A stretch of DNA of 64,000 bases, taken from assembly GCA_003216355.1 (NCBI GenBank), contig QCIX01000002.1:1-64000 (forward strand). The letters run 5' to 3'. The DNA comes from Prochlorococcus sp. AG-402-N23 (GTDB lineage Bacteria > Cyanobacteriota > Cyanobacteriia > PCC-6307 > Cyanobiaceae). The translations under genes and the position numbers were made by a program. Shown here one piece after another: positions 39,968 through 54,258 of this stretch; within the stretch, counting starts at the first letter, position 1, and every line of letters starts with the position of its first letter. The notes beneath the pieces are model-generated. The model saw only the letters and a list, made by a program, of their open reading frames with translations. It did not search any database and was not told where the DNA came from.

Positions 39968-40822
39968 GTGCAAATTAATTTATTTAATAAAGATCTAGGA
40001 ATTTTTGTCTTTCAGTTAGATCAAAAAAACTATATTAAATTTTGTCCTGGAAGAGGTGGTGTTATTACAAATTGGGTTTCGGATGGTAAAGAGATACTTT
40101 ATTTCGATGAAAAAAGATTTATGGATAAGACAAAAAGTATTAGGGGTGGTATTCCAATTCTTTTCCCTATTTGCGGAAATCTCAATACTTCTAGTTCAGT
40201 ATTTGGAAATGAGTATTTGCAGCTAACACAACATGGTTTCGCTAGGGATTTGCAATGGCAACACTCTTTTAATGAAAATGAAAAATCTTTATGCTTATTT
40301 TTAAATGAATCTAAAAAAACTAAAAAATATTATCCTTTCGATTTCGAACTAAGAATTGAAGTTAACTTAAAAATTAATTCTTTAGAATTTGAAATTACAA
40401 TCCATAATAAAACAGACTTTGCTATGCCTACAAATTTTGGTTTGCATCCTTATTTTAATGTTTCAGATTTCAAAAATTTAGAGTTTATTGATAATCCACT
40501 TAATTGTCAGGATCAAGAAAGAAACATTATAAGTAATACTTTGGATGAATTAAACAAAATTAATTTAGGAGTTGATCTACTTATGTATACTTCCGGCAGA
40601 AGCTCTTTTCGAGATAAAATTTTTAAAAGACAGGTAACTTTAAATCATCCATATCCTTTTGATTTAGGAGTTATTTGGAGTGATCCTCCAAGAAGAATGA
40701 TATGTCTCGAACCTTGGACTAGTCCCCGAAATTCTTTTGTTGATGGATTTAGAAACATTACGATTCCTTCAAATGATAGTAAAAGGTTAAATGCCTCAAT
40801 ACAAATAAAATCTCTTAAGTAA
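39968..40822 (+). CDS. Aldose 1-epimerase-like protein (GTG start)
   Basis: RGGIPILFPICGN; LTQHGFARDLQW; PTNFGLHPYFNV. Confidence 0.85.
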   Translation: MQINLFNKDLGIFVFQLDQKNYIKFCPGRGGVITNWVSDGKEILYFDEKRFMDKTKSIRGGIPILFPICGNLNTSSSVFGNEYLQLTQHGFARDLQWQHSFNENEKSLCLFLNESKKTKKYYPFDFELRIEVNLKINSLEFEITIHNKTDFAMPTNFGLHPYFNVSDFKNLEFIDNPLNCQDQERNIISNTLDELNKINLGVDLLMYTSGRSSFRDKIFKRQVTLNHPYPFDLGVIWSDPPRRMICLEPWTSPRNSFVDGFRNITIPSNDSKRLNASIQIKSLK

Positions 40823-49816: not shown

Positions 49817-50461
49817 ATGCCCTTTGCAAATAATCAAAGAATTACACGTAGACGTAGTTCAGCTGGCCCTACACCTCCAAAAAGACCAATAGGTAATAAT
49901 TCTGAATCAATTGGTAGACAGGCTCAAGGCCCAAGACCAACTTTCTTGACACTAAGGGATCATGGGAAAGTTTTTGTCGCTGATTTACCTAATTTGTCCG
50001 ATGGTCAATTGGCGCATATTAGTAAAGAAGCTAATGAAGTTTTAAATAGTTTGGAAAAAAGACTTAGTGATCTTGAAAATGAACCTAATGTTAATAATCC
50101 GGAAAACGATACGCTAATAAAAGCCTCTACCAAAAGAGATGTCACACTGAGGTTTATTAAATCAATAGAAGAAGAACAAGAACATAGAAAGAATAATCCT
50201 GCTTTACGAGATGCTGCCTCTGAATCTTTACCGAGAACTTTTCTAGAAGTTGCTAGACATAGATTGCCTGGAGCAACTTTTGATTCACTACTTCGAGAGG
50301 CTCTTGAAGCTTGTTCAGTTGATGAGAGTACTGAAGAAAATCAAGTTATTGATGAGCCTAAAGAAACTGTAAAAATTATGGATATACCCTCTTCCAACAC
50401 AAATGCTTCACTTGTTGTTAGTATCGATTCAAGTGATGATTCCAAGAATGACTCTATTTGA
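49817..50461 (+). CDS. Hypothetical protein
   Basis: 214-aa ORF with basic Pro/Arg-rich N-terminus; RDHGKVFVADLPNLSDGQLAHISKEANEVL. Confidence 0.75.
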   Translation: MPFANNQRITRRRSSAGPTPPKRPIGNNSESIGRQAQGPRPTFLTLRDHGKVFVADLPNLSDGQLAHISKEANEVLNSLEKRLSDLENEPNVNNPENDTLIKASTKRDVTLRFIKSIEEEQEHRKNNPALRDAASESLPRTFLEVARHRLPGATFDSLLREALEACSVDESTEENQVIDEPKETVKIMDIPSSNTNASLVVSIDSSDDSKNDSI

Positions 50462-50615
50462 TTTAACACAAGAGTTAATAAGTTTTAAAGACCAAAATAA
50501 TTCAAAAATTAACCTTACTTCAGAGAAAGATCCTATTTTATGTAATCATTGCAAAAGGACTGCATCAAATGGTGTTAGATGTTTAGGAATGTGTGTAGCA
50601 GATAATGATTACTAA
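50448..50615 (+). CDS. Cys-rich microprotein, zinc-ribbon-like (start placed at ATG 50448)
   Basis: CNHCKRTASNGVRCLGMCVADNDY (CX2C-X9-CX3C); overlaps preceding gene by 14 nt. Confidence 0.6.
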   Translation: MTLFDLTQELISFKDQNNSKINLTSEKDPILCNHCKRTASNGVRCLGMCVADNDY

Positions 50616-50675
50616 AATAATAAATTCATTTAATTTTATTTATTATTCACTTATATATTATTGAAGGGATAATTT

Positions 50676-51059
50676 CTATTTCTTGGAATTTCTCAAAGGT
50701 ATAAAATATATAATTAAACAACCAAATGGATTAATTATATTTAAGAAAGTCCAATACCATTTTGCTCCTGCAGACCTTAAACATCTGACTGTAAAAGGAA
50801 TTTGCACAACAATACTACCAATTAGATAAATTGCACGAAATATTGCTAATAACTGATAGATAACGGTAATTACTTCTGAGAGAATACCAATTTCTATAGT
50901 TGAATATTGGATATTAAGGAGAACGTTTTTGAAAAGAGATGAGACGATAATTATTAGATAATGTAATGAATAATATTCTAAAAATTCTTTTTTGGATGAT
51001 TCCCCTTTATATTTAAAACCTTGTCTCCAAACTGTTTTAAGTAAATTTAGATATTTCAT
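50676..51059 (-). CDS. Small membrane protein, DUF805-like, copy A
   Basis: 127 aa, hydrophobic; N- and C-terminal segments nearly identical to 52247..52645. Confidence 0.75.
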   Translation of the reverse strand: MKYLNLLKTVWRQGFKYKGESSKKEFLEYYSLHYLIIIVSSLFKNVLLNIQYSTIEIGILSEVITVIYQLLAIFRAIYLIGSIVVQIPFTVRCLRSAGAKWYWTFLNIINPFGCLIIYFIPLRNSKK

Positions 51060-51152
51060 TTTAAGTTGTGAATAATATTTATTATCTAATTTATATTTTT
51101 TTAAAAAACAGTTTTTAAAAATTTAATTTAAGTTATTTAGTAAAAGATGTAA

Positions 51153-51174
51153 GTTGTAATAAATTTATTGCGAT
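51153..51174. repeat. Near-palindrome, copy A
   Basis: GTTGTAATAAATTTATTGCGAT; counterpart of 52740..52761. Confidence 0.6.
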
Positions 51175-51217
51175 AATGTAAAGAAGGCAGAATTTCTCTA
51201 AAGAAAAACAACAAAAC

Positions 51218-51237
51218 TTACCATCCACTTACAGTCC
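51218..51237 (+). repeat. TTACCATCC-AC-TTACAGTCC (degenerate paired motif)
   Basis: 11-bp-period pair, second unit diverged. Confidence 0.55.
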
Positions 51238-51326
51238 TATTTTTTTAAGCATTTAATGAATAACAAATATTCAAAACTTAAGGTATTGGAGGGGTTTATA
51301 GGGAATTTTGTAGACAAAATAAAGAA

Positions 51327-51360
51327 GGCGGCACCCAGATTCGAACAGGGTGATAAACGG
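51327..51360 (-). pseudogene. tRNA-Cys 3'-end remnant (acceptor 3' strand + T-arm)
   Basis: GGCGGCACCCAGATTCGAAC is identical to 52914..52933 within tRNA-Cys; D-arm, anticodon arm and 5' acceptor strand are absent. Confidence 0.85.
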
Positions 51361-51406
51361 TAAAAAGTTAGTCATGACAGAGGTTTTTAGGAGGTAAAAT
51401 TGTATG

Positions 51407-51426
51407 TTACCATCCGCTTACCATCC
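51407..51426 (+). repeat. TTACCATCC-GC-TTACCATCC, perfect pair with 11-bp period
   Basis: Direct reading. Confidence 0.8.
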
Positions 51427-51485
51427 AAGAAAAATATAAGAATATTAATCATCAAGGAATAAATTATGACATCTTTGAGTGTTAT

Positions 51486-51494
51486 GGATGGTAA
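51486..51494 (-). repeat. Single inverted TTACCATCC motif (GGATGGTAA on + strand)
   Basis: Direct reading. Confidence 0.5.
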
Positions 51495-51613
51495 GTTGAT
51501 GTAGAATTTAGATCAATATTTTGCGGCACTCTATAAATTTTTTAAGTTGTATTTAAAAGAAAAAGTTGTAAAATCTGATCAAATATTTGCTGCATATATT
51601 TTAAGAATTTATA

Positions 51614-52222
51614 ATGAATTTCAAATTTCCAAATAAAATAACTTATAAAGAATTCTGGAATATTTACTCAAAATCATTTCTTTTTTTAGAAATTAGTTTT
51701 TTAACCCTTCAAATGTTGACTTGGAAATATCCAACAAATAATTACGGAAAAACAATTCCAAAATTGATGAAAGAGACTCCCCCTATTCTTGGTGCAATTG
51801 GACGTCGAAATTTTGATAACAACCCATATATTTATGGTGGTAAATTTTATCTTTCAATATTAATAATAATTTCCATTATTATTTTTATACCTTTTCTTTA
51901 TACTCTTGTTCGAAGAAGAGTAAGAGATATGGGAATCGATCCTTTTTTTACATATATTTTTTATTTACCATTATTAACTGTATCTATTACGGGTATAAGT
52001 GTGATGTTTAAATCTGTTGAAGTTTTTTTAAATCAATGTTGTACTGGTGTTTGGATTGATAATGTTTACTATAATTTAGATCTTTATAGATCTCTAACTA
52101 TTAAAGAATGGATTTTTAGTGATCCTCCTAGTAATGTTACTTGGTTTCACTTTAGGGCATTTGTCATAATAATTTCTTTACTATGTATCCCTTATTTAAT
52201 TATGGTTCGTACAAAAGATTAA
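51614..52222 (+). CDS. Membrane protein, possibly DUF805-like, cargo between tRNA remnant and tRNA-Cys
   Basis: 202 aa, several TM segments; YTLVRRRVRDMGIDPFFTYIFYLPLL resembles a DUF805-type R-x-RD-x-G motif. Confidence 0.65.
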   Translation: MNFKFPNKITYKEFWNIYSKSFLFLEISFLTLQMLTWKYPTNNYGKTIPKLMKETPPILGAIGRRNFDNNPYIYGGKFYLSILIIISIIIFIPFLYTLVRRRVRDMGIDPFFTYIFYLPLLTVSITGISVMFKSVEVFLNQCCTGVWIDNVYYNLDLYRSLTIKEWIFSDPPSNVTWFHFRAFVIIISLLCIPYLIMVRTKD

Positions 52223-52246
52223 TATCATTTTTTAAAGATATAGTTT

Positions 52247-52645
52247 TTACTTTTTTGAAATTCTTAAAGGTATAAAATATATAATCAAACAACCAAGTGG
52301 ATTAATTATATTTAAAAAAGTCCAGTACCATTTTGCTCCAACATACCTTAAACATCTAACAGTAAAAGAAATTTGCACAAAAATACTTCCAAATCTATAA
52401 AGGAAACTAAATAATTCGAATGTTTTTACGAAAACATTCAGTAATTCAGATACGATACCTATCTCAACATCGTCCTTCAAATAAAAACTTTCTTCAATAT
52501 TTAAAAGAATTCTTCCAAGAATGGAAATCACTATAATAATTAAATAGTGCGTTAAATAATATTCTAAGAATTCTTTTTTGGATGACTCCCCTTTATAGTT
52601 AAAACCTTTACTCCAAACTGTTTTAAGTAAATTTAAATATTTCAT
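52247..52645 (-). CDS. Small membrane protein, DUF805-like, copy B
   Basis: 132 aa; MKYLNLLKTVW..GF.YKGESSKKEFLEYY and TVRCLR..GAKWYWTFLNIINP.GCLIIYFIPLR.SKK shared with copy A. Confidence 0.75.
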   Translation of the reverse strand: MKYLNLLKTVWSKGFNYKGESSKKEFLEYYLTHYLIIIVISILGRILLNIEESFYLKDDVEIGIVSELLNVFVKTFELFSFLYRFGSIFVQISFTVRCLRYVGAKWYWTFLNIINPLGCLIIYFIPLRISKK

Positions 52646-52739
52646 TTTAAGTTGTTATTAATATTAATTATCTCATTAATATGTTTTGAAGGAAACTTTT
52701 TAAAAAAACTCAATTTAAGTTTTTTAGTAAAAGAAGTAA

Positions 52740-52761
52740 ATCGTAATAAATTTATTGCGAT
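52740..52761. repeat. 22-bp near-perfect palindrome
   Basis: ATCGTAATAAA|TTTATTGCGAT; only one T/G pair breaks symmetry. Confidence 0.7.
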
Positions 52762-52805
52762 AATGTAAAGAAGGTATAAATTCACTACCAAAAACAACCC
52801 TTAAC

Positions 52806-52825
52806 TTACCATCCACTTACCATCC
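52806..52825 (+). repeat. TTACCATCC-AC-TTACCATCC, perfect pair with 11-bp period
   Basis: Direct reading. Confidence 0.8.
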
Positions 52826-52912
52826 CATTTTTTAAGCATTAGATGAATAACAAATATTCAAAACTTAAGATACTGGAACGAGTTACAGGGAATTTTTTTG
52901 ACAAAATTAAAA

Positions 52913-52983
52913 AGGCGGCACCCAGATTCGAACTGGGGATAAAGGATTTGCAATCCTCTGCCTTACCACTTGGCCATGCCGCC
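52913..52983 (-). tRNA. tRNA-Cys (GCA)
   Basis: Acceptor GGCGGCA/TGCCGCC, anticodon arm GAGGA-TTGCAAA-TCCTT, T-arm CCCAG-TTCGAAT-CTGGG. Confidence 0.96.
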
Positions 52984-53025
52984 CAAAAAGATTCGATTGA
53001 GTCTTTTTATGATCTTAACAGTAAG

Positions 53026-54258
53026 GTGTCTCATTCTCTATTATTTATATGCAATGGTCATGGAGAAGATGTAATTGCTTCGGAACTAATAAAAAGGTTA
53101 CTAAAAAAAATAAAAAATAAAAATATTGAAGTTTTGCCCTTAGTAGGAAATGGAGATGTATTTAATTCCATAAAATCAAAGAATTTTCGTAAAATAGGAT
53201 ATTTAAAAGAGCTGCCTAGTGGAGGTTTTAGTAATCAAAGTCTGAAGGGATTTGTGCTTGATTTGTTTGCAGGATTTTTGATCGATAATTTGAGAAATTT
53301 TCTATTAGTAAAACAGAAGTCAAAACATAACTGCAAAATTATTGCAGTAGGCGATTTTTTGCCATTACTTTACGCTTGGAGTTCAGAATGCGAATTTAGT
53401 TTCATTGGAACTCCTAAAAGTGACCATACTTGGAGTAGTGGCCCAGGTTGGAATTTAAGCGATTTTTATCATAAGTTGAAAGGTTCTGAATGGGATCCAT
53501 GGGAAATGTTTTTAATGAAATCTCCAAGATGTAAAAATTTAATTATGAGAGATGAAATTACAGCTAATAATTTGAATAAAAAAAATATTGATGCAAAATA
53601 CTTTGGTAATCCAATGATGGATTTTGTTAATACAACAAACGAGAAGATATCAAATATTATTTCTTTTAAAAGAATTATTTTAATAGTTGGAAGTAGATAC
53701 CCTGAAGCTCTTAAAAATCTTGATAATTTTCTTCATTGTTTGCAAGATTTTGATTTATTAGAGGATTTGGTAATACTTTTGCCTTTGAGCATTAATGCAA
53801 ATGTGATTCAAATTCAAAGTTATTTAAATAAATATGGTTTTATAAAACAGAGTAAAGTTAAATTTCTAATTGATGAAGATTCATTATGGAAAAAGAAAGA
53901 TCAATATGTAGTGATCGGAAAAGGTAAATTCAATTCATGGGCCAATATGGCAGAAGTTGGCTTGTCTAATGCAGGAACTGCTACAGAGCAAATTGCTGGC
54001 CTTGGAATTCCGTCTCTTTCTATTCCAGGACCAGGACCCCAATTTACAAAATCATTTGCGAAAAGGCAATCAAGATTATTGGGAGGTAGTGTTTTAGTTT
54101 GTAAGAACAAAAAAATTCTTTTAAATCGTTTAAAATTACTTTTGAAAGGAAAAGATGATAGGTTAGAACAAGCAAGAATTGGGAAAAAAAGAATGGGAGC
54201 ATCCGGAGCAAGTAAGAAAATCGTAGATTCCATAAATCTCCATTTGTTATCTTGGTAA
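53026..54258 (+). CDS. Lipid-A-disaccharide synthase (LpxB)-related glycosyltransferase-like protein; start placed at GTG 53026
   Basis: LLFICNGHGEDVIASELI; GLSNAGTATEQIAGLGIPSLSIPGPGPQFT; listed ORF extension to 52843 runs through the tRNA. Confidence 0.75.
   Translation: MSHSLLFICNGHGEDVIASELIKRLLKKIKNKNIEVLPLVGNGDVFNSIKSKNFRKIGYLKELPSGGFSNQSLKGFVLDLFAGFLIDNLRNFLLVKQKSKHNCKIIAVGDFLPLLYAWSSECEFSFIGTPKSDHTWSSGPGWNLSDFYHKLKGSEWDPWEMFLMKSPRCKNLIMRDEITANNLNKKNIDAKYFGNPMMDFVNTTNEKISNIISFKRIILIVGSRYPEALKNLDNFLHCLQDFDLLEDLVILLPLSINANVIQIQSYLNKYGFIKQSKVKFLIDEDSLWKKKDQYVVIGKGKFNSWANMAEVGLSNAGTATEQIAGLGIPSLSIPGPGPQFTKSFAKRQSRLLGGSVLVCKNKKILLNRLKLLLKGKDDRLEQARIGKKRMGASGASKKIVDSINLHLLSW

Follow-up and report, generated by a model that had tools for sequence, protein, structure and literature searches.

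The closest known counterparts of the locus studied here are the elements that carry integrases of cluster158946, which Flamholz et al. (2023; PMC10187409) found in Prochlorococcus and Synechococcus by means of protein language models. According to the main text of that paper, these integrases sit at tRNA-Phe or tRNA-Cys, frequently with a small serine recombinase close by; they are distinct from the integrases of tycheposons, and their mechanism is not yet known. The same main text does not mention att boundaries, arm repeats or derivatives that lack the integrase. Tycheposons are tRNA-anchored mobile elements of Prochlorococcus that carry cargo and tyrosine recombinases and begin at the tRNA; they are described as 4-200 kb in size (PMC10872708). 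CIMEs have lost their integration genes, keep attL and attR, and are found in tandem (PMC5704250), and MITEs and CALINs likewise keep their ends, have lost the recombinase and can possibly be mobilised by the enzyme of a relative (PMC11389934).

The window analysed here is a stretch of 64 kb on contig C2 of a Prochlorococcus assembly (G000; completeness 81%). Next to its tRNA-Cys gene lies unit B (51325-52911; 1,587 bp), which we consider, with a probability of about 0.8 and on the strength of sequence comparison, to be non-autonomous and bounded by attL and attR, and to derive from a tyrosine-recombinase element of marine picocyanobacteria that targets tRNA-Cys. The integrase gene is deleted to a broken start, both ends are kept (22-nt tRNA core, arm pairs and one inverted arm), and the unit has the tRNA on one side and, on the other, the right end of an older relative, A. 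The lineage resembles the cluster158946 elements, as these are described in the main text of PMC10187409, in its target tRNAs, its hosts (Prochlorococcus and marine Synechococcus), its variable cargo and a tyrosine recombinase that is missing from the usual profile libraries, whereas B itself has neither integrase nor serine recombinase. Since nothing of an integrase is present in B beyond the broken start and none is found in its own genome, B is best classed as an integrase-less derivative of a tRNA-Phe/tRNA-Cys integrase element rather than a full member.

Among the other systems, B is like a CIME in lacking integration and transfer genes, in keeping attL and attR, and in standing in tandem with another unit at one tRNA 3' end (PMC5704250). 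It differs in that no conjugative element is seen here, in the small size of the units (~0.2-2.8 kb), and in the sharing of an integrase-less unit between species (see below), which suggests movement as a unit. The preliminary description had linked the locus to tycheposons; the label is doubtful because the integrase family with these ends is reported, in the main text of PMC10187409, as distinct from tycheposon integrases, and B, at 1.6 kb and with no recombinase, also differs from the large, recombinase-bearing elements of PMC10872708. The likeness to MITEs and CALINs holds in principle only, because the ends of B consist of a tRNA-derived core and tyrosine-recombinase arm repeats at one fixed site, not of terminal inverted repeats or attC arrays.

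The doubled module and the anatomy of unit B

In a BLAST search over the 64 kb, the 3' end of tRNA-Cys recurs as a remnant of 33 nt with 94% identity (Table 1), beyond which no stretch of the window resembles tRNA-Cys better than E 0.37. The core common to both ends is the 22-nt sequence AAGGCGGCACCCAGATTCGAAC, and the same tRNA core is also found at the distal end of elements in other genomes. To the left of each tRNA 3' end the same order is found, twice and in register: a DUF805 gene on the minus strand, an AT-rich near-palindrome, a pair of the 9-mer TTACCATCC, ~90 bp, and the tRNA 3' end. The two modules lie 1571-1588 bp apart and are 78-87% identical by block. The preliminary description had noticed both the remnant, ~1.6 kb from the intact gene, and the repeated module, and both are real. 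The 9-mer TTACCATCC occurs 7 times in the window as against 0.45 expected, and 6 of the 7 copies fall within 51218-52825. The seventh, a lone unpaired copy on the minus strand, is located outside the island at 40081-40089.

The 22-nt copy of the 3' end of tRNA-Cys and matched arm repeats of 9 bp, TTACCATCC, form the bounds of unit B, with a tandem arm pair ~80-105 bp from the core on either side; all five arm repeats at its two ends are intact. What is left of the integrase amounts to ~13-20 codons, and the DNA homology of this region to the G158 element described in the next section continues to ~51530 in the left-end alignment. Within its 1.6 kb, B encodes no integrase, no serine recombinase and no recombinase of any kind. 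Annotation pipelines show such units only as a stray gene beside a tRNA. An LpxB-like ORF (52843-54258, plus strand) is open through tRNA-Cys in antisense into the right end of the element, and automatic annotation may have placed its start too early.

Table 1. Features of the tRNA-Cys island, in window coordinates
Feature	Position	Strand	Remarks
Conserved 70-aa ORF, last backbone gene left of the insertion site	50403-50615	+	adjoins the site in surveyed loci with the complete region
Truncated native flank	50616-50657		~28 nt left of the ~207 bp that abut tRNA-Cys at empty sites; 28 nt, 89% to the G012 empty-site flank
DUF805 membrane protein gene, copy A (cargo of older element)	50676-51059	-	Pfam DUF805, E 4e-5, marginally under cut-off
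Right end (former attR arm) of older element A	51060-51324		aligned with right ends of B, G217, G003 and G158
Arm-repeat pair of A, second copy decayed, TTACCATCC-AC-TTACAGTCC	51218-51237	+	
attL core of B, 22-nt duplicate of tRNA-Cys 3' end (AAGGCGGCACCCAGATTCGAAC)	51325-51346		BLAST match 51325-51357, E 6e-9
Left (distal) arm-repeat pair of B, TTACCATCC-GC-TTACCATCC	51407-51426	+	spacing identical in G158 and G003
Broken integrase start (MTSLSVMDGKLM*)	51466-51504	+	homologous to MASSSVMDGNLNERTW of G158 integrase; left-end alignment
Third arm repeat of B, inverted (GGATGGTAA), within integrase start	51486-51494	-	
202-aa predicted protein, cargo of B	51614-52222	+	no family match
DUF805 membrane protein gene, copy B	52247-52645	-	Pfam DUF805, E 2.5e-5, marginally under cut-off
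Conserved right end (attR arm) of B	52755-52911		aligned with A, G217, G003 and G158; G217 94% identical
Right arm-repeat pair of B, TTACCATCC-AC-TTACCATCC	52806-52825	+	
Intact tRNA-Cys (GCA)	52912-52984	-	ARAGORN; 3' 22 nt (52912-52933) = attR core

Integrase-bearing relatives and the arm repeats

An intact relative is found in Prochlorococcus sp. AG-347-M18 (G158), whose ~9.46-kb element shares with B the remnant and, at both ends, the TTACCATCC pairs. The gene for its 459-aa recombinase starts at the distal end, with an inverted TTACCATCC inside the gene start. The left end in the window aligns with G158 and G003 over ~200 bp, through integrase codon ~20, and the right ~155 bp of B also align with G158. 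Since the alignment with G158 runs through codon ~20 (where B reads MTSLSVMDGKLM*), B descends from an integrase-bearing element.

The G158-type integrase has no convincing match in Pfam, PHROGs or NCBIfam, and its profile has none among PDB sequences. A profile of 21 members aligned with canonical tyrosine recombinases gives an hhalign score of 35.6, compared with a mean of 14.1 and a maximum of 18 for 60 column shuffles and with 12.7 for the reversed profile. R283, K312, R391-H392 and Y429 are conserved in 21/21 members, and in the profile alignment R283, R391 and Y429 fall on or next to canonical catalytic positions; three residues ahead of R391 there is no conserved histidine. A single-sequence structure model is poor (pLDDT 33.5). 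By its profile, the G158 integrase is a divergent tyrosine recombinase. Homologues are present in 8 of 266 Prochlorococcus genomes and in 36 of 399 genomes of the order, and no integrase of the family is found in the window's own assembly (81% complete). Searches of viral contigs found neither the exact TTACCATCC-pair pattern nor the integrase protein, and a search of phage records found no such integrase.

The enzyme may belong to the cluster158946 family, which it resembles by description: targets, hosts, the lack of library matches and a nearby serine resolvase, encoded by the G158 element like the small serine recombinase in the main text of PMC10187409, agree closely. The mode of integration of the published element is stated there to be unknown, and the ends, core and arm repeats given here make it directly testable. 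Relatives of the integrase are also located at tRNA-Cys or tRNA-Phe in marine Synechococcus and its relatives (L180-L206), where several are broken by stop codons and the pair-plus-inverted arm layout is the same.

Across the family the layout is as follows: the 3' end of tRNA-Cys or tRNA-Phe, a tandem 9-mer pair with an 11-nt period ~75-110 bp further on, and an inverted copy near the integrase start. The score for a pair plus inverted copy reaches at least 16/18 in 20 of the 23 left ends with an integrase gene, 16 being the top shuffle score for any of them. Att sites of lambda-type tyrosine integrases have a core with arm-type repeats on both sides. The present ends are alike in that respect, and differ in that the arms are 9-bp repeats with an 11-bp period and an inverted copy at the integrase start, whose sequence varies between elements and matches within them. 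We take the 9-bp repeats to be putative integrase arm sites. The cognate integrase would bind them and recombine inside GATTCGAA of the tRNA T-loop.

The 9-mer differs from element to element, as TTACCATCC, TTACCGCCC, TTACCTACC, TCACCTTCC, TTTCCTACC, TTACCGACC or TCCCATACC, with TCACCTACC and TTGCCGACC as further distinct codes; among the integrase-bearing elements, G087 has TTACCGCCC and G238 has TTACCGTCC. In the 22 Prochlorococcus tRNA-Cys elements, left and right arms match with a score of 16.8/20 within elements and of 13.5/20 between elements, and none of 100,000 permutations gave as high a value, a result somewhat inflated by kinship between some elements, which hold about six independent arm codes. 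Two elements with unmatched ends (G164 and G250) are best read, from these arms, as probable composites. The variation forms a natural series on how the DNA specificity of a tyrosine recombinase changes, and possibly a source of orthogonal integration tools.

Occupancy of the site and possible movement of integrase-less units

We took the region from the conserved 70-aa ORF to tRNA-Cys from Prochlorococcus genomes, which gave 75 classifiable loci; the sample is non-random, the first loci having been picked by similarity to the right end in the window. The site is empty in 34 of the 75, where native flank, usually ~207 bp, abuts the tRNA. The remaining 41 are occupied, 3 with a recombinase gene (G158, G238 and G087, with 9.46, 9.51 and 7.13 kb from remnant to tRNA) and 38 without an integrase, so that for each integrase-bearing form there are ~12 integrase-less ones among the loci examined. 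Many occupied loci retain an intact native flank immediately outside a tRNA remnant of ~21-22 nt; therefore, both flanks joined read as an empty site. Elements with unrelated cargo are common at the same insertion point. The preliminary description had named two observations that would speak against an inserted element, namely that all close relatives have the region with no empty or variable site, and that no recombinase-bearing element has its junction sequences. We looked for both, and neither holds, given the 34 empty loci and the junctions of G158. Its proposal of an integrase-less, tRNA-anchored element of ~1.6 kb with attL/attR-like bounds is supported by the same two findings. Given how far integrase-less forms predominate, such units would seem to account for much of the small-scale turnover of genes next to tRNA-Cys in Prochlorococcus.

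Deletion is frequent at this site. In two genomes everything between the arm pairs is gone, leaving solo att scars of 197 bp (G060, L053) and 190 bp (G003, L014) that consist of the left end up to the arm pair and the right end from the arm pair on, as would be expected from recombination between two arm pairs, in analogy to solo LTRs. Many integrase-less islands have degenerate arms, which implies that decay is common. Real-looking integrase stubs occur only in G019 (a C-terminal piece), G113 and G031. Other matches to integrase fragments of 10-30 residues, in several mini-islands, were rejected as mostly chance or translated arm repeats.

These losses bear on a rival account of B, decay in place, by which a full element inserted beside A and then lost its integrase and most genes, so that B is dead and never moved without an integrase. 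The broken integrase start, which marks descent from a full element, is as expected on this account, as are copy A, the solo scars and the G019 piece, which indicate that deletion is common here, and the finding of no helper integrase in B's own genome, at 81% completeness. Set against it are the five arm repeats at B's ends, all intact, the 12-to-1 excess of integrase-less forms in the loci examined, and an integrase-less element that is itself shared between species. For B itself, decay in place is a possibility that deserves to be taken seriously; for the class as a whole, the sharing weighs in the other direction.

Between G104 and G093 the shared element differs at 29 of 1,972 bp (98.5% identity), and its flanks are 90.8% identical on the left and 95.3% on the right (element versus flanks, Fisher p 3.5e-22), with identity dropping at the tRNA end and at the left end of the element. 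A search of the two genomes found no integrase homologue. These values show that two species have recently shared an integrase-less unit. A second and weaker case is G166/G170, G104/G093 being the sole clear one; in most other integrase-less pairs, the flanks are at least as similar as the islands and mostly more so, so these pairs show no recent transfer. Between G170 and G166 (L141 and L142) the interior of the element is 98-100% identical, and the last ~80 bp, from the arm pair to tRNA-Cys, are distinctly less similar, which would fit a replacement of this tract.

Because the G104/G093 element is so much more alike (98.5%) than its flanks (91-95%), it appears more likely for the class that a helper mobilises the units, either in trans or in cis within a composite, than that they decayed in place. 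B, like the other integrase-less members here, would then probably be excisable and integrable by an integrase from another element with matching arms. The preliminary description had left open whether the recombinase was lost or supplied in trans: the loss is seen in the broken integrase start, and supply in trans is supported by the G104/G093 sharing and may hold for B.

Mobilisation may also have been restricted to a cis route resembling CIME accretion, the units moving only within a composite that includes a neighbouring integrase-bearing element at this tRNA, which later leaves or is lost. Tandem occupancy, seen in the window and in G003, agrees with such a route, and both the CIME mechanism and tandem accretion are described for ICEs and IMEs (PMC5704250); yet no examined locus has integrase-bearing and integrase-less elements in tandem, and we regard restriction to this route as unlikely.

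If helpers do act, the integrase-less islands could form a satellite population of two ~200-bp att modules plus cargo, each tuned by its arms to one integrase lineage. The arm codes (TTACCATCC, TTACCGCCC, TTTCCTACC, TCACCTACC, TTGCCGACC, TCCCATACC and others) are split, mostly at one tRNA core, as if integrases escaped their satellites by changing code and the satellites followed, a picture that we put forward as speculative and rather doubtful. Relative to the literature examined, the att anatomy, the arms matched within elements, the excess of integrase-less forms, the solo scars and the G104/G093 sharing are new here.

Probable serial insertion beside copy A, and the tRNA-Asn island

The remnant at 51325 is preceded by the right end of A and not by native flank, implying that B entered next to A. 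The left end of unit A is missing, and the native flank beside it has shrunk to ~28 nt; therefore, A is best described as the right half of an older element, a relic. On this sequence arrangement, the island reflects two insertions in series at tRNA-Cys, and the earlier suggestion that copy A is a relic of a previous insertion is supported. Site-specific recombination at the 3' end of the tRNA would have brought B in, restored the tRNA and moved A further out; the loss of A's left end would have followed. The history of G003 is alike, with a 190-bp scar bearing TTACCGCCC arms followed by a TTACCATCC element.

DUF805 copies A and B differ with dN 0.20 and dS 0.70, and dN is below dS in every pair. 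The protein of copy A is 85% identical at the amino acid level to a third copy, which the same genome has next to tRNA-Asn, and 71% to that of copy B, so simple tandem duplication is not favoured. A simple old duplication of the DUF805-tRNA-3'-end segment by homologous recombination would account for two modules of the same order and 78-87% identity, but it is highly improbable given the DUF805 relationships, the unique left end of B (arm pair, inverted arm and integrase stub) that matches the outer end of elements elsewhere, and the common occurrence of empty sites and of elements with unrelated cargo at the same point.

The third DUF805 gene belongs to a second integrase-less mini-island of ~2.8 kb on contig C1 of the same genome (L018, 7963-10755), beside tRNA-Asn. 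Here 27 nt of the tRNA 3' end are duplicated (81%), both ends have the identical 24-nt stretch TTGTGGTGGGGAAATGGTGGGGAA, which contains a pair with an 11-nt period, and the DUF805 gene is accompanied by a gene for an AlpA-like excisionase at the distal end. The arm pair of tRNA-Asn type, GGTGGGGAAATGGTGGGGAA, occurs in 15 of 225 Prochlorococcus genomes, and a genome often has at least two of them; the two in G182 (G182:C15:3957 and 13994) are 10 kb apart. A stretch of the G104 cargo (L049) is 94% identical to G182:C15:7288-7792, between these two arm pairs, and stretches related to it recur in ~40 genomes. Judging from these matches, elements that target different tRNAs seem to exchange cargo.
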